Part shown: piece by piece, positions 19,803 to 30,784 of the stretch | Numbering within the stretch: position 1 is the stretch's first letter | How the letters are laid out: each line of letters starts with the position of its first letter | Made by a program: the position numbers and the translations under genes | DNA from: Betaproteobacteria bacterium TMED22 | GTDB lineage: Bacteria; Pseudomonadota; Gammaproteobacteria; Burkholderiales; Eutrophovitaceae | NCBI GenBank assembly: GCA_002167745.1 | Contig: NHCB01000010.1 | Span: 145,869-189,927, forward strand | Reading direction: 5' to 3' | DNA: 44,059 nucleotides | Notes under the pieces: generated by a model | The model's database searches: none | Told to the model about the DNA's origin: nothing | Seen by the model: only the letters and a program-made list of their open reading frames with translations

Positions 19803-20591
19803 ATGAATAATCAACCAATCGGTATATTTGACTCAGGTATAGGTGGTCTATCAATCCTCGGCGAAATAAAATCATTACTACCCAACGAACACTTAATCTA
19901 TATTGGCGATACCGCATATCTACCCTACGGCACTAAAAGTAAACAAATCATTTCTGAACGAGCAAATAAAATTTGTAAGTATTTATTAAGTAAAAACTGT
20001 AAATCAATCGTCGTAGCATGCAATACAGCGACGAGTGCCGCCATACATGAGTTACGATCTAGCTTCTCTGTTCCGATTATCGGTATTGAACCGGCGATTA
20101 AACCGGCCAGGTTACGTACCCAAAGTCGAATCATTGGCATCCTGGCGACAGAAGCAACATTGGGAGGGGATAAGCTCCAAGCCCTGAAACAGAAATTCGG
20201 GCAAGATATCAAAATTTTACACCAGGCGTGTTCGGGTCTAGTAGAAGAAATTGAACTGGGTGATCGACAAAGCCAATTCCTTCACGACCTTATAGAGACA
20301 TATGTCGAACCCCTGATCAAACAAGGGGTAGACACGCTCGTTCTAGGATGCACTCACTTTCCTTTGATAAAGGATCTTATCCAAAAATACGCGGGTGATA
20401 GCGTTCGAGTCATAGATCCTTCTTTATCTGTCGCCAGTGAATTAAAAAGACAGCTGGACATAAAAAATATAGGACGAAAAGGAGGCTCTGGGACTACTAC
20501 TTGCTTTCAAACCGGTAACAACAAGACGTTTGAGACGTTTATAAAAAAATCTAATTTAAATTATGGCTCGCCCAACCTAATAACTCCGTAA
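19803..20591 (+). CDS. murI: glutamate racemase
   Basis: The 262-residue protein is a complete glutamate racemase. It has PIGIFDSGIGGLSIL with the substrate-binding Asp10/Ser11, YIGDTAYLPYGTKS, the first catalytic cysteine at 73 in VVACNTATSAA, and the second at 183 in LVLGCTHFPLI with His185. It interconverts L- and D-glutamate to supply D-Glu for peptidoglycan in the cytoplasm. It lies 55 bases after the PhyH-like gene on the same strand. Its last codons overlap the remains of an EamA transporter gene on the other strand, so its 3' end marks a rearrangement point. The C-terminal tail after the last helix looks of normal length. Confidence 0.96.
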   Translation: MNNQPIGIFDSGIGGLSILGEIKSLLPNEHLIYIGDTAYLPYGTKSKQIISERANKICKYLLSKNCKSIVVACNTATSAAIHELRSSFSVPIIGIEPAIKPARLRTQSRIIGILATEATLGGDKLQALKQKFGQDIKILHQACSGLVEEIELGDRQSQFLHDLIETYVEPLIKQGVDTLVLGCTHFPLIKDLIQKYAGDSVRVIDPSLSVASELKRQLDIKNIGRKGGSGTTTCFQTGNNKTFETFIKKSNLNYGSPNLITP

Positions 20592-20801
20592 AAAATGTAC
20601 CTCAATCTTTTTAGTCTTGAGTTGTCTTCAACCAGTGCAACTCATTACAATTACCATTATCGAAAAGCCCACCACGCTTCGTACAAATAATATTTGCGAT
20701 GTTGAGAGTTCAGCCGATAATTCACGACCGGAGATCGCCATCAAGGAAAATGAAAACATTCCACCAAACATCCAAAGTACTGCTTTAGTTTGATCGGACA
20801 T
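20577..20801 (-). pseudogene. truncated EamA/DMT-family transporter remnant
   Basis: Reading leftward from the ATG at 20801, the frame gives MSDQTKAVLWMFGGMFSFSL, then MAISGRELSAELSTSQILFV and RSVVGFSIMVIVMSCTG before a TGA at 20628-20630. This is the first two helices of an EamA (RhaT/DMT) transporter with the family's ILFVRS segment. Beyond the TGA the same frame continues RQLKTKKIEVHFLRSY before a TAG at 20577. EamA proteins have a similar basic loop after the second helix, often with W where the stop now is. Full-length members have about 290 residues, so over three quarters are missing. It is a decayed gene, cut where murI ends. Confidence 0.72.
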
Positions 20802-20830
20802 AACTCAGCATAAAGAATCTCGTTTGGAAG

Positions 20831-21355
20831 TCAGACAAAACCCGCGACACCCAGAAGAGCACCTATCGCCATCAATAACAATAAATGTAATCGGGTTTTC
20901 CACACAATTAAGGCTACTAACATCAAGCAAATTAGTGTTGAAATCCCTGAAAACCCTTTCATTAAAATTAATGCAGTAGAAAATAATAACCCTACGACAA
21001 CGGGCGAGGAACCAATCGCAAACGACTGTACCGACAATCGATGACTATTCCTATGACGCCATCGGCTGACATAAAAAGCAAATATGGCAGAGGGCACAAT
21101 CATCGCAAACATAATCAATAAAGCCCCACTAAATCCAGATATTTGATATCCCAGGACCGCAACAAATAGAGCATTAGGACCTGGCGATAATTTACCCAAG
21201 GTAACCGCAGCTAAAAACTCCTGATTGGATACTAGGGATAATCCATCAACCACAAGCCGGTGCATATCGGGTGCCACCGCCATTACCCCACCAATCGCTA
21301 AAAAAGATAAGAATGCAAAATTCGCTAATAGCGTCATCCAGACAACAAGGCTCAT
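20831..21355 (-). CDS. chromate transporter (CHR) subunit, second gene
   Basis: The 174-residue membrane protein starts at the ATG that overlaps the preceding CHR stop (ATGA); longer frames would run into that gene. It carries the CHR family motifs FLSFLAIGGVMAVAPDMHR near the start and the LGKLSPGPNALFVAVLGYQISG loop, followed by several hydrophobic helices. Short-chain CHR proteins work as pairs encoded by neighbouring genes, exporting chromate by proton-driven antiport. Translational coupling with the upstream gene supports a heterodimer. Family members also exist without chromate resistance, so the true anion may differ. Confidence 0.87.
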   Translation of the reverse strand: MSLVVWMTLLANFAFLSFLAIGGVMAVAPDMHRLVVDGLSLVSNQEFLAAVTLGKLSPGPNALFVAVLGYQISGFSGALLIMFAMIVPSAIFAFYVSRWRHRNSHRLSVQSFAIGSSPVVVGLLFSTALILMKGFSGISTLICLMLVALIVWKTRLHLLLLMAIGALLGVAGFV

Positions 21356-21948
21356 AGTCGAGACCTTTTCTTGTCTTGATAAGACTGAAGAGCATGACGA
21401 GCCCATAGATATGAAAACGGCCCGCAGCCTAAAACCGCCCATACTATCGACAAGCGTAAATAACCAATCATATAAACCACACTAGCGATAACCAGAATCG
21501 GCACGAGTCGACCCACGATAGCTGTTTGTATCCCTGATAAAAGTCTAAGGCCCGTCCCTAGCGTCATGCCAACTGCAACAACTGACATTCCTTTTATAGC
21601 TCCCAAAAGTGGTGAGTCCACCGCCACTTGCTCATAGCTGCTTGCTAATATTAAAATCACAACTGACGGCAGAATAAGCATGCCCGACAAGGCTACGACA
21701 GCACCTTTCGCCCCAAAAAACCGATCACCTATCATAAGTGCTAAGTTACAAACGTTTGGCCCAGGCAGGATCTGAGATAACGTAAACATTTCTAAGAATT
21801 CGGTCTGTGAAAACCACTTTCTCTGATCTACGAGCATTCTTTGCATTACGGTAATGACGCCACCAAAACCTTGCAATGCAATCAAGGAGAATACATAAAA
21901 TAACTCAGAAAGGTTATGAGGCTTAGAAGCAAAAAATTTCGATGACAT
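21352..21948 (-). CDS. chromate transporter (CHR) subunit, first gene
   Basis: The 198-residue membrane protein has the N-terminal CHR signature FYVFSLIALQGFGGVITVMQRM, then the WFSQTEFLEMFTLSQILPGPNVCNLALMIG stretch (the PGP motif with the usual polar residues) and the ALSGMLILPSVVIL helix. It pairs with the downstream 174-residue CHR protein through a four-base ATGA overlap, so the two half-size proteins should form one transporter. The gene diverges from gshA across 143 bases, so both promoters must lie there. Linking it with glutathione synthesis in oxyanion or redox stress is attractive but only inference. Confidence 0.88.
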   Translation of the reverse strand: MSSKFFASKPHNLSELFYVFSLIALQGFGGVITVMQRMLVDQRKWFSQTEFLEMFTLSQILPGPNVCNLALMIGDRFFGAKGAVVALSGMLILPSVVILILASSYEQVAVDSPLLGAIKGMSVVAVGMTLGTGLRLLSGIQTAIVGRLVPILVIASVVYMIGYLRLSIVWAVLGCGPFSYLWARHALQSYQDKKRSRL

Positions 21949-22091
21949 GAGAGGGCAGATTAAAATATTACTTATAAATTAAACGTCCAAATGACAAGGT
22001 ATCCCGCGCAAGATTTGAGTCGCGATAAGGGATATCATACGGTAAAGGGAATTACACGAGAACCCATATCTGTAATCGAATAAAAAAATAT

Positions 22092-23669
22092 ATGTCCCCA
22101 TTAAAACTTGAGCAACTGAGTGAGTATGATCTAGCGAACCTAAACAGAGGTATCGAAAAAGAGAGCTTGCGTGTCTCCCCGACGGGACGACTAAGTCAGC
22201 ATAGGCATCCTAAAACGCTTGGCTCAGCACTAACACATGGAAATATAACTACAGACTTCAGTGAATCACAACTAGAACTAATTACGGATACGCACAATGG
22301 AGTAAATGCTTGTCTTAGCCAATTGAGGGAAATTCATCAATTTGTAAGCCGTAACATCTCATCAGAACTTCTTTGGTGTTCAAGTATGCCGTGTATGTTG
22401 CCACATGATCAGGACATTCCAATCGCCCAGTTTGGCACATCAAATATCGCCACGGCTAAGACGGTTTATCGGCGCGGCCTGGCGGTAAGGTATGGCGCAA
22501 AAATGCAAACAATTTCTGGAATTCATTACAATTTCTCAATGCCAAATGAAACTTGGTCTAGAGTCTATGGCAGCTCTCATGATCGTAATGAATTGATAAA
22601 TATTAAAAATCAACATTACTTTTCATTGATAAGAAATTTTAGAAAAAATGCCTGGTTGCTTCTTTATCTTTTCGGAGCTTCGCCCGCGGTATGTGATTGT
22701 TTTGTTAAAGGTCGGGTACATCACTTAAAGATGATGTCGAATGGTACTCGCTTTCTTCCTTATGCCACGTCACTAAGAATGGGTCCATTGGGCTATCAAA
22801 GTGATGCACAGTCAGCAATCAGCGTGAGCTACAACAATCTAAAAAGTTATGCTCAATCACTCTACGATGCGCTTACACAACCCTATCCTCCCTACGCGGC
22901 CATCGGACTCAGCAATCAAGAACGACCGCTTCAGTTATCCAACGCATTATTACAAATCGAAAATGAATTTTACGGAACGATACGACCAAAGCAACCAATC
23001 CAGTTTGGAGAACGTCCGCTATTAGCTCTAAATAGAAGAGGTGTTGAATATGTAGAGGTTCGTTGCGTTGACCTCAATCCATACGAGGAAATTGGAATCA
23101 CTAAAGAGACTATAGCGTTTCTTGATACGTTTTTACTTTATTGTCTAATATCACAAAGCTCGACTGATTCTATAGAAGAAGATCGCTCTAACAGTGAAAA
23201 TCAATATCTTATTGCAGAGCGTGGTAGAGATCCAAATCTAAAGCTAAATCGAGATAAAAATCACTTATCTGTAAAAGATTGGGGACAAGATATCATTGAA
23301 GCATGCCAACCTTTTGCGCTAAAACTAGATCAGGCGAATAACACCACTGATCATACTCAATCGTTAAAAAATGCACTCGAATCCATTCAAAACCCCAATA
23401 AAACTCCTTCCGCAAAGGTGCTGCATGACGTTGAAGCACATAACGGCTCCTACTTCGACTTTATCATGGGACTTTCATCAAAATATACAGACAAACTAAA
23501 GAACGACACTTTGTCTGACACAACTTTAAATAAATATGTGAGTAACGCACAATCATCCATGGTAAGGCAACAAGATATTGAACACGAGGACCAATTGGAA
23601 TTCGAAGAATTCCGAAAAGATTACGTGTCACAAGAAGCCTCCAGGATAATCCTGGAGGAAAATGGATAA
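22092..23669 (+). CDS. gshA: glutamate-cysteine ligase, proteobacterial type
   Basis: The 525-residue protein matches the E. coli-type GshA in length and order: NLNRGIEKESLRVSPTGRLS at the start with the catalytic glutamate, LGSALTHGNITTDFSESQLE, GIHYNFSMP, TSLRMGPLGYQS, and VEYVEVRCVDLNPYEEIGI. It joins glutamate and cysteine with ATP, the first and controlling step of glutathione synthesis. No gshB is in the window. The ATG lacks a clear binding site, preceded by an A/T-rich leader. The last codons of the gene form a perfect 9-bp hairpin. The gene diverges from the CHR transporter pair and converges on an SDR gene. Confidence 0.95.
   Translation: MSPLKLEQLSEYDLANLNRGIEKESLRVSPTGRLSQHRHPKTLGSALTHGNITTDFSESQLELITDTHNGVNACLSQLREIHQFVSRNISSELLWCSSMPCMLPHDQDIPIAQFGTSNIATAKTVYRRGLAVRYGAKMQTISGIHYNFSMPNETWSRVYGSSHDRNELINIKNQHYFSLIRNFRKNAWLLLYLFGASPAVCDCFVKGRVHHLKMMSNGTRFLPYATSLRMGPLGYQSDAQSAISVSYNNLKSYAQSLYDALTQPYPPYAAIGLSNQERPLQLSNALLQIENEFYGTIRPKQPIQFGERPLLALNRRGVEYVEVRCVDLNPYEEIGITKETIAFLDTFLLYCLISQSSTDSIEEDRSNSENQYLIAERGRDPNLKLNRDKNHLSVKDWGQDIIEACQPFALKLDQANNTTDHTQSLKNALESIQNPNKTPSAKVLHDVEAHNGSYFDFIMGLSSKYTDKLKNDTLSDTTLNKYVSNAQSSMVRQQDIEHEDQLEFEEFRKDYVSQEASRIILEENG
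23638..23658 (+). terminator. perfect hairpin inside the last codons of gshA
   Basis: CCTCCAGGA and TCCTGGAGG pair without mismatch around a TAA loop. The hairpin lies in the coding sequence for ASRIILEE and ends nine bases before the stop. The following DNA is A/T-rich but has no run of T, so this is either a factor-assisted terminator or a 3'-end stabiliser of the gshA mRNA between two convergent genes. Confidence 0.4.
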
Positions 23670-23694
23670 GTTTCTATTAAATCAATTTCGATTC

Positions 23695-24474
23695 TTAAAA
23701 GGCACTGTTATAAACCCCACCATCAATCAATAAACTTTGTCCTGTAATGTACCCTGCATGGGCGCTGCATAAGAACGCACATGTTTTACCAAATTCATCA
23801 GGCGCTCCAAAGCGCTTGGCCGGGATTTTCGACGCACGATCATCCGCAACTTCCTGAACACTAACACCAGTATTTTGGGCCCAGGTTTCCAAGCCTCCTC
23901 TAAGTCGATCTGTGTCAAAAAATCCTGGCAGTATATTATTAACTGTAACATTATTATCAGCAATCGTCCTCGACACACCCGCAAGAAATGCCGTCAATCC
24001 AGCCCTCGCCCCGCTCGACAAATCTAGCCCAGGCACTGGCATTTTTACACTCATCGATGTGATATTTACGATACGTCCAAACTTTTGGCTAATCATATGA
24101 TCGACAACCTTTTGAATTAATTCGATCGGAGTAACCATGTTCATAGTTACCCCATCAATCATCGCATCACGATCTAGTTCTCTAAAATCTCTGAATGGAG
24201 GACCACCATTATTATTAATTAATATATCTGGATTCGCGCATGCATTTAAAACTTTTGCCTGTCCGTCTTGAGTGCTGATATCCGCAATAACTGGAGTTAC
24301 CGAGACCCCGTTAGTTTTTACTATCTCATTTGCAGTCTCAGTCAACGCTTTTTCATCTCTGCCGTTTAATACGAGCGAAACACCAGCCTCGGCTAACGCA
24401 ACCGCACAGGCCTTACCAAGTCCTCGACTTGAAGCACACACAATAGCTGTTCTTCCTTTTATTCCAAGGTCCAT
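23695..24474 (-). CDS. atypical SDR lacking the catalytic Tyr-Lys pair
   Basis: The 259-residue protein has an SDR fold with cofactor motif VCASSRGLGKACAVALAEAG (residues 12-31), NGRDEKAL, ILINNNGGPPF in place of NNAG, and C-terminal ITGQSLLIDGGVY. Where classical SDRs carry YxxxK it reads LDLSSGARAGLTAF, so both catalytic residues are replaced; the Ser of NITSMS is kept. This SNGAR-like variant forms a known group of FabG-like proteins that may use another mechanism or not be dehydrogenases. It converges with gshA and is upstream of a Sel1 gene on a separate transcript. Family certain, activity uncertain. Confidence 0.87.
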   Translation of the reverse strand: MDLGIKGRTAIVCASSRGLGKACAVALAEAGVSLVLNGRDEKALTETANEIVKTNGVSVTPVIADISTQDGQAKVLNACANPDILINNNGGPPFRDFRELDRDAMIDGVTMNMVTPIELIQKVVDHMISQKFGRIVNITSMSVKMPVPGLDLSSGARAGLTAFLAGVSRTIADNNVTVNNILPGFFDTDRLRGGLETWAQNTGVSVQEVADDRASKIPAKRFGAPDEFGKTCAFLCSAHAGYITGQSLLIDGGVYNSAF

Positions 24475-24504
24475 CGATTATTCCTCCTAGATTTTTAATA
24501 AATG

Positions 24505-25014
24505 CTAATTTGAAACCCCATAAAAAAACTCGTTAACCCAGATTTGAGCACGTTCACGCGCGATCATAATGGACGTCTGATCCATTCTCTGGCTCAATAG
24601 ATTCGCTTGAAATTTTGCTTTTTCATCAAAATTTATTGTATTTGCCAACAACAGCCAACGATATGCCTCGATATCACTTGAATTACTGAGCGCACCATTT
24701 TTATAAAGCATTCCTAGATTAAACATCGCATACGCATAACCACTATTAGCAGACCTCATAAACCATTCCGCCGCATCCTCTGCCCGACGGGCTCCAAGAT
24801 CCCCGTCCCGATATATTATTCCCAGTCCATTCTGAGCTCGCACATGATCCAATGTGCCAGCAAGTTTCCAATACCTCTCGGCACCAATATAATCCCTCTT
24901 AATGAAAGCGGCATATCCGAGGTCAAAAAACTCTTCTGCGTTATTGGCTTGCGCGTTAGCAACCACAAGGAATGCCATCCCGACACATACAAAAAACCTT
25001 TTTAAGTCGACCAT
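24505..25014 (-). CDS. secreted Sel1-repeat protein
   Basis: I start at the ATG ending at 25014, giving 169 residues. A GTG nine bases further up is less likely because AGGT sits at the right distance from the ATG. The protein begins MVDLKRFFVCVGMAFLVVANAQAN, a signal peptide cleaved about residue 23. Two Sel1/TPR-like repeats follow, AQNGLGIIYRDGDLGARRAEDAAEWFMRSA and AMFNLGMLYKNGALSNSSDIEAYRWLLLA, flanked by degenerate ones. Such periplasmic solenoids serve as protein-interaction scaffolds. It precedes nothing obvious in function; queE lies 35 bases upstream on the same strand and may share its transcript. Confidence 0.85.
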   Translation of the reverse strand: MVDLKRFFVCVGMAFLVVANAQANNAEEFFDLGYAAFIKRDYIGAERYWKLAGTLDHVRAQNGLGIIYRDGDLGARRAEDAAEWFMRSANSGYAYAMFNLGMLYKNGALSNSSDIEAYRWLLLANTINFDEKAKFQANLLSQRMDQTSIMIARERAQIWVNEFFYGVSN

Positions 25015-25015
25015 A

Positions 25016-25040
25016 CCTAGCACCTAGTCCCTAGTCCCTA
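25016..25040. repeat. 7-bp tandem repeat at the Sel1 gene ribosome binding site
   Basis: On the plus strand the units read CCTAGCA, CCTAGTC, CCTAGTC, CCTA. On the coding (minus) strand this becomes GGGACTAG-type units leading straight to the ATG of the Sel1 gene, so the purine-rich AGG of each unit lies in the leader. Copy number changes would shift the spacing and number of possible ribosome binding sites. Confidence 0.75.
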
Positions 25041-25049
25041 TATAAAGTT

Positions 25050-25682
25050 TCACTCTACACCAATAATTTTATGAGTTTGTAAGCCAAGTCTCCATTGAGG
25101 ATGTTCTTTACAGAATTGAATCGATAATTGCGTATTCAACTCCACATCCAATCCATCCTTAGGCTGAATAAAAAAATGATTAAAATCCCATGACAAAAAC
25201 AAGGACGGATCGACATCAATTTGAGGATAAACCAATTTTAATTCGTCACCCGATTTAGCGAGAACAGGAACCGTTCCCTTAGGACTGACACAAACCCAAT
25301 CAACCCCCTCGGGAACAGGCAACGTACCATTGGTCTCAATAGCAACTTCAAATCCTCGGTTGTGAAATTCGACGATCAATTCCCGATCGAGCTGCAACAA
25401 CGGCTCCCCTCCAGTGCAAACTACATATCGACGTGCGCGAGCGCCTGAGAGCCACTGTCTCTCAACCTCATCCGCAAGCACGGTAGAAGATCTGTATTTT
25501 CCACCGTTGACCCCATTAACTCCCACGAAATCGGTATCACAGAAACTACAGTCTGCCGATAACCGATCTTCTTCACGCCCAGACCATAAATTACAACCGG
25601 AGAAACGACAAAAAACAGCTGCTCTGCCACTTTGAGCACCTTCACCTTGCAGCGTATAGACAATCTCTTTAACTGAGTACAT
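25050..25682 (-). CDS. queE: 7-carboxy-7-deazaguanine synthase
   Basis: Starting at MYSVKEIVYTLQGEG gives 210 residues and avoids overlap with queD, from which it is eight bases apart. It is a radical SAM enzyme with the CX14CX2C cluster motif typical of E. coli-type QueE (Cys30, Cys45 and Cys48, in FSGCNLW and ADCSFCDTDF), followed by VVCTGGEPLLQ and AIETNGTLPVP. It rearranges 6-carboxytetrahydropterin to 7-carboxy-7-deazaguanine in queuosine precursor synthesis. The adjacent queD makes its substrate, so the pair is one operon. No good ribosome binding site precedes the ATG, consistent with coupling to queD translation. queC and queF are not in the window. Confidence 0.94.
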   Translation of the reverse strand: MYSVKEIVYTLQGEGAQSGRAAVFCRFSGCNLWSGREEDRLSADCSFCDTDFVGVNGVNGGKYRSSTVLADEVERQWLSGARARRYVVCTGGEPLLQLDRELIVEFHNRGFEVAIETNGTLPVPEGVDWVCVSPKGTVPVLAKSGDELKLVYPQIDVDPSLFLSWDFNHFFIQPKDGLDVELNTQLSIQFCKEHPQWRLGLQTHKIIGVE

Positions 25683-25690
25683 ACATATTG

Positions 25691-26782
25691 TTAAATTGGC
25701 AATGCTGGACCCAGCGAGCCCCAATCAATCGTTACACCACAGCCCTCATTTTCATATAAATCAATCCGCTCAAGCTCTGGCAAATACGGTGCGCTACTGG
25801 CTTTAATCCACCTTGCAATACTGAATGGGTCGTTATCACGTAAGTCATCAATCTCATAAAGTGGTTGGTGGTCTAGTTTATCGAAAATAGGGTTAAATTT
25901 TTCTTTGACATCACCGTAATCTATAGTCCAACCTAGAACGTCGTTAAGCGGCGCTGTTAGATGTAGTCGACATAAGTAGGTGTGTCCGTGAATACGCTTG
26001 CGTGCATCCGCTTCTGTTACCCGCTCCAGTCGTATGGCACTATCAATGGAGAAGTCCTTCCAAATTCGAAAGTCTAATCCATCGTAGTGAGCTCCACTGG
26101 TAGCAGTTTCATATACAGTTACCCAGCTTAATTGAGGTATTTTTCGTTTTAATCTGTGCCATAGCCAAAACGAAATCATCTCGCTGGTTGGGTTTTCAAG
26201 CCCTGAAATATCATTTAAACAATTATGATGCAGAATTTGGTGTATATCATTCCAGTGCGTTTGCATCTCATCGTAATCAATACCCAAGTGAGAATCCTTC
26301 AGCTCGGTCTTAGCGTGCAATATCACTTCAAAACCATGACCATGCATACGGCCACACTTATGGCCCTGAGGAACGTTTGGTAAGCGATGTGCTGACTCAA
26401 AACGAAACTTTCTCCAGGCATGTGCAGCACCATATCGGTCCAGATGAACACCCTCGTTAGATTGACTTGTCAATCCGATAACGTTGACATCAGGTAGGCC
26501 AATACGCTCCTTTATATATCTCGCGATATTTTCATCAGTCGGAACATCAATAATATCGTTCAAGTAACTATAATCAAGCGGACTACATGCGCTTTGCAAG
26601 ATTTCACGTGTTAGCTCTAATTGATCAAAATTAACAGTTTCAGATTCATCAACAGCCAATCGAATGGAAGCGTTATAGCTATGACCATGCAAAGCTCGGG
26701 CACGATGAGACTCAGAAAATATACCAATTTGACACGCAGCTTCGAAGGATGTGCTCGCTGCCACATAAACTCTTTCTGTCAT
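25691..26782 (-). CDS. queD: triple-domain 6-carboxytetrahydropterin synthase (QueD-like)
   Basis: The 363-residue protein is three times the usual QueD length and reads as three PTPS domains. Domain 1 (about 5-115) keeps LHGHSY at 31-36 but has FEAACQ where the first zinc His should be and no catalytic Cys. Domain 2 (about 122-232) is intact: FESAHRLP (His132), GHKCGRMHGHGF (Cys143, His147, His149), DYDEM, LHHNCLN and VYETATSG. Domain 3 (about 243-357) keeps IHGHTY (264-269) but has SAIRL for SAHRL and no Cys. QueD makes 6-carboxytetrahydropterin from dihydroneopterin triphosphate. Only the middle domain looks able to do so. The outer two may help form the hexamer. It leads the operon with queE. 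Confidence 0.9.
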   Translation of the reverse strand: MTERVYVAASTSFEAACQIGIFSESHRARALHGHSYNASIRLAVDESETVNFDQLELTREILQSACSPLDYSYLNDIIDVPTDENIARYIKERIGLPDVNVIGLTSQSNEGVHLDRYGAAHAWRKFRFESAHRLPNVPQGHKCGRMHGHGFEVILHAKTELKDSHLGIDYDEMQTHWNDIHQILHHNCLNDISGLENPTSEMISFWLWHRLKRKIPQLSWVTVYETATSGAHYDGLDFRIWKDFSIDSAIRLERVTEADARKRIHGHTYLCRLHLTAPLNDVLGWTIDYGDVKEKFNPIFDKLDHQPLYEIDDLRDNDPFSIARWIKASSAPYLPELERIDLYENEGCGVTIDWGSLGPALPI

Positions 26783-26934
26783 CCACCTACCTTTTCATCT
26801 GTTCCCAAAATTATCACGAATAAATCAACACAATAGTGGCTCCTCTGAGGAAAGCTAATCCTAAATGAGATCAATTTCGTTAACATCTCTCTAGTGTACG
26901 ATAAAGATCCAATTATATTTTAAGGAGCCGCAAG

Positions 26935-27729
26935 ATGGATATGCAACTGAGCGGGAAGAAAGCTTTAGTCACCGGTTCAACTTATGGAATTGGATACGCT
27001 ATAGCTGAGGCTCTAACAAAAGAAGGAGCTAACGTTGTCATTACCGGTAGACACCAAGAATCGGTACTCAACGCAGTGGAACAACTAAAAAATATCAACG
27101 CTGACACTGAACCAACTGGATTAAAGGCAGACTGCACAACAACGGATGGATGCCAACAAATTTTCGATGCCGTTCCCGAAGTTGATATCCTCATCAATAA
27201 TCTCGGAATATACGAGCGCAAATCTTTCTTTGAAATTGAGGATTCAGATTGGACTCGTTTTTTTGAAGTGAACGTTATGAGCGGAGTCCGGTTTACGCGA
27301 TTTTATACTCCTAAGATGGTTAAAAAAAAATGGGGACGCGTCATTTTCGTATCAAGTGAATCTGGCCTTATGATCCCACCGGATATGATTCACTACGGAT
27401 TCAGCAAAAGTGCTCAGTTAAGCATCTCTCGTGGTCTAGCTATATCTCTCAGTGGTACTGGAGTAACAGTAAATGCCCTCCTACCCGGTCCCACGAGAAC
27501 TGACACCACAGAACGACAAAGAAGGGAACGTGCTGACAACTGGGGGATTAGCATTGAACAACTCGAAAAGGAATTTTTTGAAAAATTTCGTCCTACATCG
27601 ATCACCAAAAGATTCGCAACGGCTTCAGAGGTCGCACCACTTGCTGTATATCTAAGTAGTCCATTGTCAGCGTTAACTACTGGCGCAACCTTAAGAGTCG
27701 AAGGGGGCATAGTCAATCAAATCACATGA
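26935..27729 (+). CDS. classical short-chain dehydrogenase/reductase
   Basis: AAGGAG stands seven bases before the ATG. The 264-residue protein has KALVTGSTYGIGYAIAEAL (residues 8-26), ITGRHQESV (Arg suggests NADP preference), ILINNLGIYE, the catalytic Ser in VIFVSSESGL, the Tyr-Lys pair in HYGFSKSAQLS, and LLPGPTRTDTTERQ. The active site is complete, unlike the SDR at 23695-24474. The long C-terminal lid, with REREDNWG-like charge and FRPTSITKRFATASEVA, fits oxidoreductases of the FabG-like group of unknown substrate. It diverges from queD across 152 bases and converges on the GGCT-like gene. Confidence 0.9.
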   Translation: MDMQLSGKKALVTGSTYGIGYAIAEALTKEGANVVITGRHQESVLNAVEQLKNINADTEPTGLKADCTTTDGCQQIFDAVPEVDILINNLGIYERKSFFEIEDSDWTRFFEVNVMSGVRFTRFYTPKMVKKKWGRVIFVSSESGLMIPPDMIHYGFSKSAQLSISRGLAISLSGTGVTVNALLPGPTRTDTTERQRRERADNWGISIEQLEKEFFEKFRPTSITKRFATASEVAPLAVYLSSPLSALTTGATLRVEGGIVNQIT

Positions 27730-27746
27730 GAATTAATATTTGGAAC

Positions 27747-28637
27747 TTACTCAAAAAACAATTTTTTATATTGTTTCCAGGATCCTGATGTTATTTCCTC
27801 AGCCGTAGAACTTAGATCGCCGGCAACATAACACCAAGCCAAGATCGGCCTCTTATTTCGGAGTGTCACATTTATCAAAATTCGATCATATTCGTTATGA
27901 CTTGCGCCAAAATCAGAAAACCCTTCCACTCGATCAAGCGCGGAGACGGCTTTAGATATGTCATGGAAATAGAATAATTCACCAAAAATACTTTTAAGTT
28001 TTTGATTTTCTGGGATATCAAGCATCGGGTAATCACACTTTGTCGCGTAAAGTAACCCAGAAACTGAAGCATCTGCGCGACTGACTAAGCGTAACGCTTC
28101 TACTTTTGAATGACGACATTCATCACTCATCAGCGTGCCGTAAGTGAATAGACCGATTGAGTTATCAGGAAACGGGCGATTAGCGACGGCTTCTGTTAAA
28201 TGCACATCAGAGAAATTACAACGTTGCAGTCCTCGCCGCACTACTTCGACGTAGGCCTCCGTCGGTTCTATGTAATTACCTTGACTCTCTGGTAAAACTT
28301 CATATGTAGTCACATGAATACTGAAAGTATTGGGGATTAATACATGCTTATTTACTCGTTGATATAGGCGGTCTGCAACCCCTTCTTTCAAATCAAGAGC
28401 TTGCCAACCTATATCCCCCACTTTAAACAAAGCCCCACAAACATAACTACCTGAGCGTTCTCTAATATTTAGAGCACCCCCACCGCGAGTGGACGAATAA
28501 ACATTAAAGATAAGCTCATGATCAGGCAATAAAGCTGGACCAATTAGTGAAATACAATCGGCAGGAATTTCATTTCTTATACAAAAACGTGTCCAATCTT
28601 CATCATCTAAATTTGATCCGTAAGCAAAATACATCAT
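27747..28637 (-). CDS. two-domain gamma-glutamylcyclotransferase-like protein
   Basis: The 296-residue protein contains two GGCT/AIG2-like domains in tandem. The first (about 1-115) opens YFAYGSNL (3-10), with candidate catalytic Glu85 in ALDLKEG. The second (about 160-275) opens LFTYGTLM (163-170), with Glu239 in ALDRVEGF. Both keep the YGS/T glycine loop and the glutamate that define the fold. Members cyclise gamma-glutamyl groups to 5-oxoproline or act on isopeptides. Most are single-domain, of 110-190 residues. The start has only a weak CAGAGA site. It is preceded after 12 bases by the ABM monooxygenase gene on the same strand, a likely operon. Substrate unknown; glutathione-related use is inference. 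Confidence 0.85.
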   Translation of the reverse strand: MMYFAYGSNLDDEDWTRFCIRNEIPADCISLIGPALLPDHELIFNVYSSTRGGGALNIRERSGSYVCGALFKVGDIGWQALDLKEGVADRLYQRVNKHVLIPNTFSIHVTTYEVLPESQGNYIEPTEAYVEVVRRGLQRCNFSDVHLTEAVANRPFPDNSIGLFTYGTLMSDECRHSKVEALRLVSRADASVSGLLYATKCDYPMLDIPENQKLKSIFGELFYFHDISKAVSALDRVEGFSDFGASHNEYDRILINVTLRNKRPILAWCYVAGDLSSTAEEITSGSWKQYKKLFFE

Positions 28638-28649
28638 TCTCTGAAAAAT

Positions 28650-28958
28650 TCAAGTTGTTGATTTTAAGACGTGGATTACTCGAGATTCTATCCAATCTTT
28701 AGTTTTTTGACTGTAACTGACCATGTGCGGAGCTGACGTATGAGCCTTTAACGCCGCCGCGTCTCGCCACTTTTCGATTACCAGAAACGTATCTGGTCCC
28801 AGTTCAGTTTGGAAAGCTCCAAAGTCAGCATCAAACACCAAGCTATATTCTATGCATCCAGACTCCGCAAGAACACTCGCTAGATTATTTTCAGCCGCCG
28901 AAAGAATAGCGTTTCTTTTACCTGTTTTAGCCTTGATAACGGCAACAACGTGAATCAT
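28650..28958 (-). CDS. ABM-family putative quinol monooxygenase
   Basis: The 102-residue protein is a single ferredoxin-like antibiotic biosynthesis monooxygenase domain. It starts MIHVVAVIKAKTGKR, has ENNLASVLAESGCIEYSLV, the strand with TFLVIEKWRDAAALKAHTSAPHM, and a final helix. YgiN and related proteins oxidise quinols or act on small aromatics without cofactors, as dimers in the cytoplasm. The conserved E-x-W and H-x-x-x-x-H pattern (EKWRD, AHTSAPH) is present. It precedes the GGCT-like gene and diverges from the sulfatase-modifying-factor-like pair across 63 bases. Confidence 0.87.
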   Translation of the reverse strand: MIHVVAVIKAKTGKRNAILSAAENNLASVLAESGCIEYSLVFDADFGAFQTELGPDTFLVIEKWRDAAALKAHTSAPHMVSYSQKTKDWIESRVIHVLKSTT

Positions 28959-29021
28959 ATTATCGTGTCTTTAAATGCGATACTAATAAGTAATTAGAAT
29001 AATATACTTCGACAATAAATT

Positions 29022-29906
29022 ATGTTCTTAACTTTGCCAGTGTTTAACACCAAAATAACCCTTACTCTCACATGCATGCTTTGGTCACAGTGCATAAACT
29101 CTGTTTCCGCTGAGGAAAGATATTTTCCTGGCGATGAATTTAAAGACTGTGGAGACTGTCCGGTCATGATTGTCATTCCTTCCGGCTCTTTTAGTATGGG
29201 CAGTCCTCCTGTTGACCAAGGAAGGCCATATGCCGAGGGAGAGTTGCGGCTCGTCCATATTCCAAACCGCTTCGCGTCGGGTAAGTTTGAGATTACCTAT
29301 AAAGAGTGGGAGGGATGCGTTGTAGATGGACAGTGTCCTGACGCAAAAAAAGATGACTGGAGCGGCGAAACCCATCCTGTCGTAAATATATCTTGGAAAG
29401 AAGCATTCCAATACACAAAATGGTTATCTAAAAAAACAGGGAGGCCTTACAGACTTTTAACGGAAGCTGAGTGGGAATACGTAGCCACAGGTGGAATCAG
29501 TCGAGCTAGATTTTTTGGGATTAAGGCTCAAAGGATCTGTGATTTTGGAAATATTTACGACTACACGGCGGAAGAAGTGCTCGATTACGGGTTAGATGTA
29601 CTACCTTGTAACGATCAATACGGATTTTCAGCGCCAATTGGCTCGTTCAAACCCAATCAATTCGGTGTCCACGATATGCTCGGCAATGTTTGGGAGTGGA
29701 CCGAAGATTGTCAAGCAATTCTATGGCGCAATGCCCCAACAGACGCGTCAGCCCGCGTTGATGGCCACTGCACTCATCGTGCTTATAGAGGTGGATCTTG
29801 GCTCAGTCATCCACCTAAGTACCTTCAGATACCAGACCGCTATAAATACCTGGGCGCGCGCGAAATAGATTTGGGTTTTAGACTAGCATTAACCCTAAAT
29901 CCATAA
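29022..29906 (+). CDS. secreted FGE/SUMF1-like protein, first of a tandem pair
   Basis: The 294-residue protein carries an N-terminal export signal (about residues 1-31, ending SVSA) and the formylglycine-generating enzyme fold: MIVIPSGSFSMGSPP, FEITYKEWEGCVVDGQC, HPVVNISWKEAFQYTKWLS, GRPYRLLTEAEWEYVATGG, FGVHDMLGNVWEWTEDC and AYRGGSWLS. True FGE has two copper-binding cysteines soon after RGGSW; here SHPPKYLQIP occupies that place, so it should not make formylglycine. Such proteins include EgtB- and PvdO-like iron enzymes and non-catalytic binders. Several other cysteines (CGDC, CVVDGQC, EDC, GHC) could form disulfides in the periplasm. Its function is unknown. The paralogue follows after 17 bases. 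Confidence 0.85.
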   Translation: MFLTLPVFNTKITLTLTCMLWSQCINSVSAEERYFPGDEFKDCGDCPVMIVIPSGSFSMGSPPVDQGRPYAEGELRLVHIPNRFASGKFEITYKEWEGCVVDGQCPDAKKDDWSGETHPVVNISWKEAFQYTKWLSKKTGRPYRLLTEAEWEYVATGGISRARFFGIKAQRICDFGNIYDYTAEEVLDYGLDVLPCNDQYGFSAPIGSFKPNQFGVHDMLGNVWEWTEDCQAILWRNAPTDASARVDGHCTHRAYRGGSWLSHPPKYLQIPDRYKYLGAREIDLGFRLALTLNP

Positions 29907-29923
29907 TTATTTTTTTAACGTCA

Positions 29924-30784
29924 ATGCGATTAGCAATAATAATTACAGCATATATCATCATTTGCAATTCACACGTACTGGCTCAATCCTCAAGGGGCGA
30001 ACTTTTCCAAGACTGTGAAACGTGCCCAAGTATGATTGTTATACCCTCTGGTCCCTATGGCTTCGGCTCTCCACCTAACGAATTTGGTAGCCCATACAAC
30101 GAAGGATACATCTTAGATATTGTCTTCGAAAAATCATTCAGCATTAGTCGATTTGAAATCACATTCACGCAATGGGACCTTTGCGCTAAGGATCAAGCCT
30201 GTCGCACTATTGATGACGAGGGTTACGGTAGAGGTGACCAGCCCGTAATGAATGTTTCTTGGGAAGATACCCAGTCCTACATTCAATGGTTGAAAAAAAT
30301 AACTGGCAAACCTTATCGTTTACCGTCTGAAGCGGAATGGGAATATGTAGCTCAATCTGGAACTAAACGAGCTAGATTTTTTGGTATTCAAGCGACAAGA
30401 ACATGCGAATTTGGTAATGGTTACGATGAAACCGCCGAACGAGAACACGAATTCGGCTGGCGTACATTACCCTGCTCTGATGGAGCTCCGAGTTTGGCAA
30501 AAATTGGTTCCTATAAGCCAAACCCATTTGGCGTTTATGACATGCTAGGAAATGTATGGGAATGGGTCGAGGACTGCCTGAATCCGAATTGGCGGCATAG
30601 TCGCGCGTCTTTGAATGGACAACCATTCAAAGATGGAGACTGTGACCAACGTGCATATAGAGGCGGCTCTTGGCTTACGAACCAACCGTACTACCTCAGA
30701 ACGGCTGAACGCTACAAGTTCTATGGGGCAAAACATATTGATCTAGGATTTCGGGTAGCGCTAGACCTTACCGATCAAGATTAA
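29924..30784 (+). CDS. secreted FGE/SUMF1-like protein, second of a tandem pair
   Basis: The 286-residue protein has a signal peptide (about 1-20, ending VLAQ) and matches its upstream neighbour throughout: CETCPSMIVIPSGPYGFGSPP, FEITFTQWDLCAKDQAC, QPVMNVSWEDTQSYIQWL, GKPYRLPSEAEWEYVAQSG, FGVYDMLGNVWEWVEDC and AYRGGSWLTN. The two clearly arose by duplication, and both lack the FGE catalytic cysteines after RGGSW (TNQPYYLRTA here). The shared cysteines at equivalent places suggest the same disulfides. The gap of 17 bases suggests co-transcription and perhaps a complex. Differences between the copies are spread evenly rather than clustered. It converges on the dicarboxylate transporter gene eight bases away. 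Confidence 0.85.
   Translation: MRLAIIITAYIIICNSHVLAQSSRGELFQDCETCPSMIVIPSGPYGFGSPPNEFGSPYNEGYILDIVFEKSFSISRFEITFTQWDLCAKDQACRTIDDEGYGRGDQPVMNVSWEDTQSYIQWLKKITGKPYRLPSEAEWEYVAQSGTKRARFFGIQATRTCEFGNGYDETAEREHEFGWRTLPCSDGAPSLAKIGSYKPNPFGVYDMLGNVWEWVEDCLNPNWRHSRASLNGQPFKDGDCDQRAYRGGSWLTNQPYYLRTAERYKFYGAKHIDLGFRVALDLTDQD

Follow-up and report, generated by a model that had tools for sequence, protein, structure and literature searches.

The window analysed here, a stretch of 44,059 nucleotides from Betaproteobacteria bacterium TMED22, carries on its minus strand a single open frame (25691-26782, from the ORF list and its translation) for a triple-domain QueD protein of 363 amino acids. Three PTPS stretches follow one another in this protein and in its aligned relatives. 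They are referred to as domain 1 (D1, residues 1-118, positions 26429-26782), domain 2 (D2, residues 119-236, positions 26075-26428) and domain 3 (D3, residues 237-363, positions 25694-26074), all on the minus strand. When the thirds, cut at residues 118/119 and 236/237, were scanned alone against the Pfam PTPS profile, they scored 39.2, 92.8 and 63.0 bits, respectively, all above the cut-off of 22.4 bits. An earlier note on this DNA had proposed three tandem PTPS domains, and this holds for the two outer thirds as well as for the middle one. With the NCBIfam QueD profile (TIGR03367), the whole protein exceeds the cut-off of 89.25 bits with 154.1 bits, a sum over three stretches, and the thirds alone (39.0, 71.1 and 52.6 bits for D1, D2 and D3) all stay below it. 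This calls for caution in annotation, as the whole-protein score adds up three unequal domains.

The next gene, also on the minus strand, is queE (25050-25682), which encodes 210 amino acids from an ATG at 25682, a start chosen from the sequence, and begins 8 nt past the queD stop codon. It is of the Cx14CxxC type and matches TIGR04508 with 332.3 bits (cut-off 240), scored on a longer frame with a TTG start. Short-chain dehydrogenase genes (23695-24474 and 26935-27729) flank the queD-queE region on both sides, and a tandem pair of neighbouring genes (29022-29906 and 29924-30784) encodes FGE-sulfatase (sulfatase-modifying factor 1-like) domains. A search with window positions 20000-30000 gave no match to near-identical plasmid DNA.

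Identity and spread of the triple protein

The triple protein is the sole PTPS protein found in its own genome at E 0.001 (1.88 Mb, completeness 95.33%). The same genome has matches for queC (247.8 bits), tgt (538), queF (115.8) and folB (72.1), and the queuosine gene context is thus present, with queE adjoining and queC, tgt and queF in the genome. D2 carries the motif C143-GRM-HGH, which neither D1 nor D3 of this protein has. Among the class motifs, CxxxHGH stands for PTPS-I, ExxHGH for PTPS-III and CxxxxxHGH for PTPS-II (PMC5041015). Because queE lies downstream and queC, tgt, queF and folB are in the genome, and because D2 has the PTPS-I motif, the triple protein is very likely the cell's QueD (6-carboxy-tetrahydropterin synthase, PTPS-I). 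The Asp-His dyad does not lie within the Cys domain as it does in E. coli QueD, since D2 reads H185-H186 and the dyad is found in D3; this split marks a variant, and an intersubunit triad would be compatible with it.

Three other assignments do not fit. PTPS-III, the folate bypass enzyme, does not fit, as D2 reads G144-R145-M146-HGH and not ExxHGH, and the cell has its own FolB. PTPS-II, the biopterin enzyme, disagrees with the spacing of the D2 Cys, which precedes the HGH by four residues (counted to its first His) and not by six. A bimodular QueF disagrees with the three PTPS domains, and no QueF family is among the matches listed for this protein; the likeness is confined to the split of the site.

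We examined 130 loci of relatives, with repeats kept and the own window excluded, two of which had too little flank. The queE gene lies directly downstream in 117 of the 128 testable loci, with a median of 14 nt between the tblastn matches of queD and queE, and no queE match was found in the flank of the other 11. A queC match (tblastn, 1e-5) was present in the flank of 67 of the 130 loci. The adjacency of queE, already pointed out in the earlier note, is usual among the relatives. It speaks for a common pathway but is no evidence that the two proteins touch.

The triple form has an old origin and a wide distribution. When the own genome and 60 relatives were searched with the protein, 22 of the 61 genomes gave matches, and in 16 of these the match covered all or nearly all of its length. 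Among 300 genomes of the same order that were at least 90% complete, a profile search at E 1e-30 found a match in 58. Of these, 46 have the full triple form (47 proteins, one genome having two), one has a broken form and 11 have partial matches, of which 10 cover the D2 stretch and one covers D1; some PTPS match is present in 242 of the 300. When one genome per species was scanned across 84,980 species, at least 585 stretches were found to encode a relative. The best 80 of these at least 585 stretches are all full or nearly full length and include Burkholderiales, Nitrosomonadaceae, purple sulfur bacteria (among them Thiocapsa and Thiocystis), Thiothrix, Methylotetracoccus and Magnetococcales. 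An artefact of one genome or assembly is ruled out by the 130 proteins, 124 of them at less than 99.5% identity. An in-frame stop (one TGA) in three relatives was considered as a case of recoding and dismissed, because the match had overrun the normal end and fits entirely inside the open frames. At least one genome (G031) has a single-domain PTPS (L168) together with the triple form, so that the triple form need not be the sole QueD in every genome.

Some individual loci deserve mention. In the broken case (G301, locus L149, about 1911-2950), the triple gene is split over two overlapping frames and some 58 profile positions of D2 are unmatched, reflecting either a broken gene or an assembly fault. 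Another genome, G114, has two triple genes (L120 and L150); no queE match was found within 2 kb of the second. Two MAG contigs, one labelled Planctomycetota (L098) and one Nitrospinaceae (L084), also carry the triple form, by transfer or wrong binning.

A tree of individual domains was built on 120 columns from 64 rows, namely the three domains of 17 of the 130 triple proteins, 11 of 20 single-domain stretches and two solved QueDs, and many of its forks remained open. One branch (100/100) sets all D1 rows apart from the rest, and another (100/99) does the same for all D3 rows. D1 and D3 are separate lineages. The D2 rows need two changes, and 36% of bootstrap trees unite them. D1 rows account for the three longest end branches. 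The simplest reading of this tree would be one old triplication, followed by divergence according to position in the chain.

Distribution of active-site residues over the three domains

The 130 triple proteins were aligned with one another; H16, C27, H31, H33, D70, H71 and E110 of E. coli QueD, taken from a separate alignment, served as reference residues. As the sets of relatives overlap and some loci, which lie on contigs of equal length (40002, 16594, 429431, 245434 and 311678 bases), probably come from the same genomes, the residue counts are based on the 124 proteins left at less than 99.5% identity. In the intermediate alignments (95 and 128 proteins), identical strings alone had been removed, and counts from these are slightly inflated. 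The scan patterns held C143, H147 and the D288-K293 stretch, not the dyads, so that the invariance of those residues in the 80 loci obtained by scanning is partly by construction. In 33 further proteins from a profile search without these patterns, at least two of which lie on contigs equal in length to contigs of the scanned set, C143, H147, D304 and H305 are present in 33 of 33, and the D2 Asp in 3 of 33.

D2 is invariant in all 124 proteins at nine positions: the first zinc His H132 (26387-26389; H16 of QueD), the catalytic Cys C143 (26354-26356; C27 of QueD) within CxxxHGH, H147 and H149 of HGH (26336-26344; H31 and H33 of QueD), which are predicted zinc ligands, T199, S200 and E201 (26180-26188), the active-site Glu E225 (26108-26110; E110 of QueD), and T226. 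The T199-S200-E201 stretch corresponds to rat PTPS T105-T106-E107, described in a passage of PMC7546909 as the acceptor motif for the pterin ring. Judged by sequence, D2 is the only domain to hold the zinc-His triple, in 124 of 124 proteins.

The dyad is a different matter. In this window, L184-H185-H186 of D2 stands against L-D70-H71 in E. coli QueD, and the Asp is replaced by His185 (dyad position 26225-26230). At the D2 dyad position, Asp is found in 34 of the 124 proteins, His in 67 and both in 28, which leaves 96 without the pair. D3 has D304-H305 (25868-25873; D70-H71 of QueD) in every one of the 124, together with invariant D288 and K293. The HGH of D3 (25982-25990) is less strict, with H265 in 102 and H267 in 121 of the 124. 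At the column of the first zinc His, D3 has V in 52 proteins, L in 45, I in 14, T in 10, R in 1 and a gap in 2, but never His.

D1 likewise has no His in this column in any of the 124 proteins (R 76, C 42, other 6), and in this protein it lacks the Cys and the catalytic His as well. Its HGH (H32-G-H34, 26681-26689) is kept with both His residues in 124 of 124, and most aligned proteins keep a TDE-like pterin motif in D1. Tyr occupies the catalytic-His column in 103 proteins and His in 17, the Asp-His pair is found in 17, Cys at the catalytic column in 8 and Glu at the E225 column in none. Asp-His is absent from both D1 and D2 in 80 of the 124 proteins, and in 41 even the dyad His is absent from both, leaving D3 as the only domain with a His there.

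Among 76 proteins at less than 80% identity, the dyad is present in D3 in 76, in D2 in 21 and in D1 in 4. On a quick tree of 84 proteins, built with the trait columns left out, the D3 dyad needs no change at all, and the minimum number of changes is 18 for the D2 His, 12 for the D2 Asp, 11 for the D1 Asp, 2 for the D1 His and 3 for H265 of D3. As a control, an Asp-His text pattern was looked for in 20 single-domain PTPS stretches, hand-picked from PTPS matches with other subfamilies included and two of them without the Cys, and all 20 contain it.

In the triple QueD of this window, no single domain is complete. The earlier note was right that D1 and D3 have lost the first zinc His (C17 and I250) and keep HGH without the catalytic Cys, and the conservation of the outer HGH motifs, which it had put forward as a point to check, is evident from the counts above. 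Its statements that domain 2 has all residues and that the middle domain alone is complete do not stand, given His185 and given that D3 has the dyad that D2 mostly lacks.

Four single-domain QueD-like proteins of one family (f43; L155, L161, L163 and L166) have Arg at the first zinc His in 4 of 4 fetched and keep the Cys, HGH, Asp-His and Glu. As the other site residues are kept, loss of that His alone may not mean loss of activity.

A proposed composite active site

For PTPS, Nar reportedly assigned zinc, Cys and Glu to one subunit and the His to the adjacent one in 1994, with Cys42 and Glu133 of the rat enzyme on one subunit and His89 on another. A passage of PMC7546909 places the six zinc sites of the hexameric enzyme between adjacent monomers, and the title of Burgisser 1995 (cited in PMC7546909 and PMC2229834) describes the catalytic triad as intersubunit. 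Given an intersubunit triad and unchanged chemistry, either D1 or D3 would have to lend the D2 Cys its Asp-His, and because D3 alone has Asp-His in every protein, it is the likely donor.

Together, the data suggest a model in which this QueD is a covalent pseudo-trimer with one composite site, formed by the zinc and Cys half of D2 and the Asp-His of D3, and we consider this model likely to be right. Three PTPS domains would have been fused in one chain that closes into a pseudo-trimer, and three equal sites would, after fusion, have been reduced to one. D2 would give the zinc ligands H132, H147 and H149, the Cys C143, the pterin-holding T199-S200-E201 and E225. D3 would bring D304-H305 close to C143, taking the role that the neighbouring subunit has in ordinary PTPS, and D1 would close the ring and retain its invariant HGH. 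The choice of D3 as the donor, and with it the direction of the ring, rests on conservation and covariation.

The AlphaFold2 model (16-row alignment) has a mean pLDDT of 86.0 and a pTM of 0.86, and among segments of three or more residues only 283-286 falls below a pLDDT of 50. Among solved structures it matches the P. aeruginosa homologue and E. coli QueD best, in both cases over D2, and D2 of the model superposes on 4ntk_A (E. coli QueD) with Z 11.8 and rmsd 1.6 over 120 residues. D1-D2 (e.g. residues 4-236) and D2-D3 (e.g. 119-356) each superpose on urate oxidase chains, with Z 10 to 11.4, rmsd 4.4 to 5.1 and some 205-219 residues in most rows.

Covariation was computed without gaps on about 76 effective sequences; the signal is noisy and follows ancestry, which was partly removed. 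Between the turn after E225 in D2 and the dyad loop of D3, 5 of 180 pairs exceed z 4, against 0 of 180 for the dyad loop of D1 and 0 of 180 for the four other pairings. The same comparison of Glu turn and dyad loop in 103 long-form proteins gave 9 pairs for D2-D3, 0 for D2-D1, and 0, 0, 0 and 1 for the remaining pairings. A further coupling (z 5.2) links K142, the neighbour of the Cys, to P307, next to the dyad. Between the last strand of D3 and the first strand of D1, 2 of 120 pairs exceed z 4, against 0 to 1 for the reverse pairings, and coupling of these two strands is what a closed ring would give. The zinc half-sites gave no direction when paired with the dyad loops: D2-D3 has 1 and D3-D2 has 2 of 450 pairs above z 4, all six pairings have 0 to 2 of 450, with 0 for the D1 half-site and the D3 dyad loop, and in the 103 long-form proteins D2-D3 has 4 and D3-D2 has 3, in a range of 0 to 4. 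Strand 4 of D1 and strand 1 of D2, whose contact is certain from the chain, were missed (0 of 91 above z 4). The two ring directions are thus clearly separated by the E225 turn alone and weakly by the strand pairs, and the covariation favours a D2-D3 pairing.

The covalent trimer proposed in the earlier note fits the predicted model and the weak strand covariation between D3 and D1. The part that called the two outer members degenerate fares less well, since D3 is not simply degenerate and most likely completes the site of D2. D1 is harder to place. Its HGH is invariant, and the composite reading gives this HGH no role, which counts against it; the motif could possibly form a pocket for a metal, pterin or partner. 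One may go further and picture D1 as a pocket without a catalytic part, used to sense a pterin or metal or to bind a partner, next to D2 as the metal and Cys half and D3 as the proton-relay half of a former homotrimer that is now one chain. We put this forward tentatively, as an unlikely extension.

It is improbable, in our estimate, that D2 is a self-sufficient QueD that assembles with the D2 of other chains, while D1 and D3 are decaying passengers that hold the shape. Such a reading would predict what is seen in D2, which is the only domain with the full set of zinc, Cys and pterin residues and the one most similar to E. coli QueD. However, the Asp of D2 is His185 here, 96 of the 124 proteins lack a D2 Asp-His, and the D3 dyad never changes. 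Mere passengers would not keep D288, K293, D304 and H305, nor both HGH His residues of D1, in 124 of 124 proteins.

We give equally little credence to the opposite ring direction, in which the D3 dyad would serve a second site with the HGH of D1, and the D2 site would use Tyr71 of D1 or have no triad at all. The invariance of both the D1 HGH and the D3 dyad would suit such an arrangement, as would the order seen by residue numbers in bimodular QueF, whose partner domain precedes the Cys domain (PMC5372742), and the zinc half-site covariation favours neither direction. A second D1-D3 site is nevertheless difficult to reconcile with a D1 that has the Cys in only 8 of 124 proteins and the Glu in none, nor does the D1 half-site covary with the D3 dyad loop above z 4 in any of the 450 pairs. 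The Glu turn of D2 also speaks against this direction, with 5 of 180 pairs to the D3 loop and 0 of 180 to that of D1.

It is very improbable that the extra domains serve mainly as a docking site for QueE, to which the product would be passed on as the next enzyme of the pathway. Such a role would agree with queE directly downstream at a short median distance, but genes of one pathway commonly lie side by side, 11 of the 128 testable loci have the triple form without queE in the flank, and the divided dyad would be left unexplained.

If the composite site is real, the protein would be a natural fusion of a homo-oligomer with interface sites, in which the sites have become divided and one complete site of three has been kept. 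Each half of the PTPS/QueD site would then be separately changeable in one chain, and a residue check confined to one domain would wrongly call D2 or D3 inactive.

Relation to known systems

Among the papers listed in searches of the open-licence PMC literature, which omits most subscription papers, none describes a triple-domain QueD with a divided site. The closest relatives in structure are E. coli QueD (PTPS-I, 4ntk) and the P. aeruginosa homologue 2oba, which resemble D2 in fold, zinc residues, CxxxHGH, Glu and TSE, and resemble the triple form in queuosine gene context. Unlike the triple protein, they are single-domain and have Asp-His and Cys in one domain, whereas here there are three domains and the dyad lies apart from the Cys.

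Urate oxidase has two T-folds in tandem per chain and is not known to contain a metal. GTP cyclohydrolase IB also has two T-folds per chain, and D1-D2 of the model aligns with such a chain (Z about 10, rmsd about 6); this likeness is a match of fold, and the reaction differs. Urate oxidase shares with the proposed arrangement a site at an interface, which according to a passage of PMC7792999 takes Thr57* and Lys10* from one protomer and Asn254 from the other. It differs in having two domains per chain, a between-chain interface and other chemistry.

Bimodular QueF of V. cholerae and E. coli is a tandem of T-folds from the same pathway, with the elements of its site divided over two domains of one chain and brought together in an interdomain site (PMC5372742), and the predicted model aligns with 3rzp_B, a bimodular QueF, at Z 8.6. 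It differs in its two domains, its different reaction, the lack of a closed tunnel and the later position of the Cys domain: judged by residue numbers, Cys194 and Glu234 come after the QueF motif (Glu94), so that the split runs the opposite way round the chain (PMC5372742). Division of a site between fused T-folds is thus already known from what is described of bimodular QueF, and sites built from two protomers from what is described of urate oxidase.
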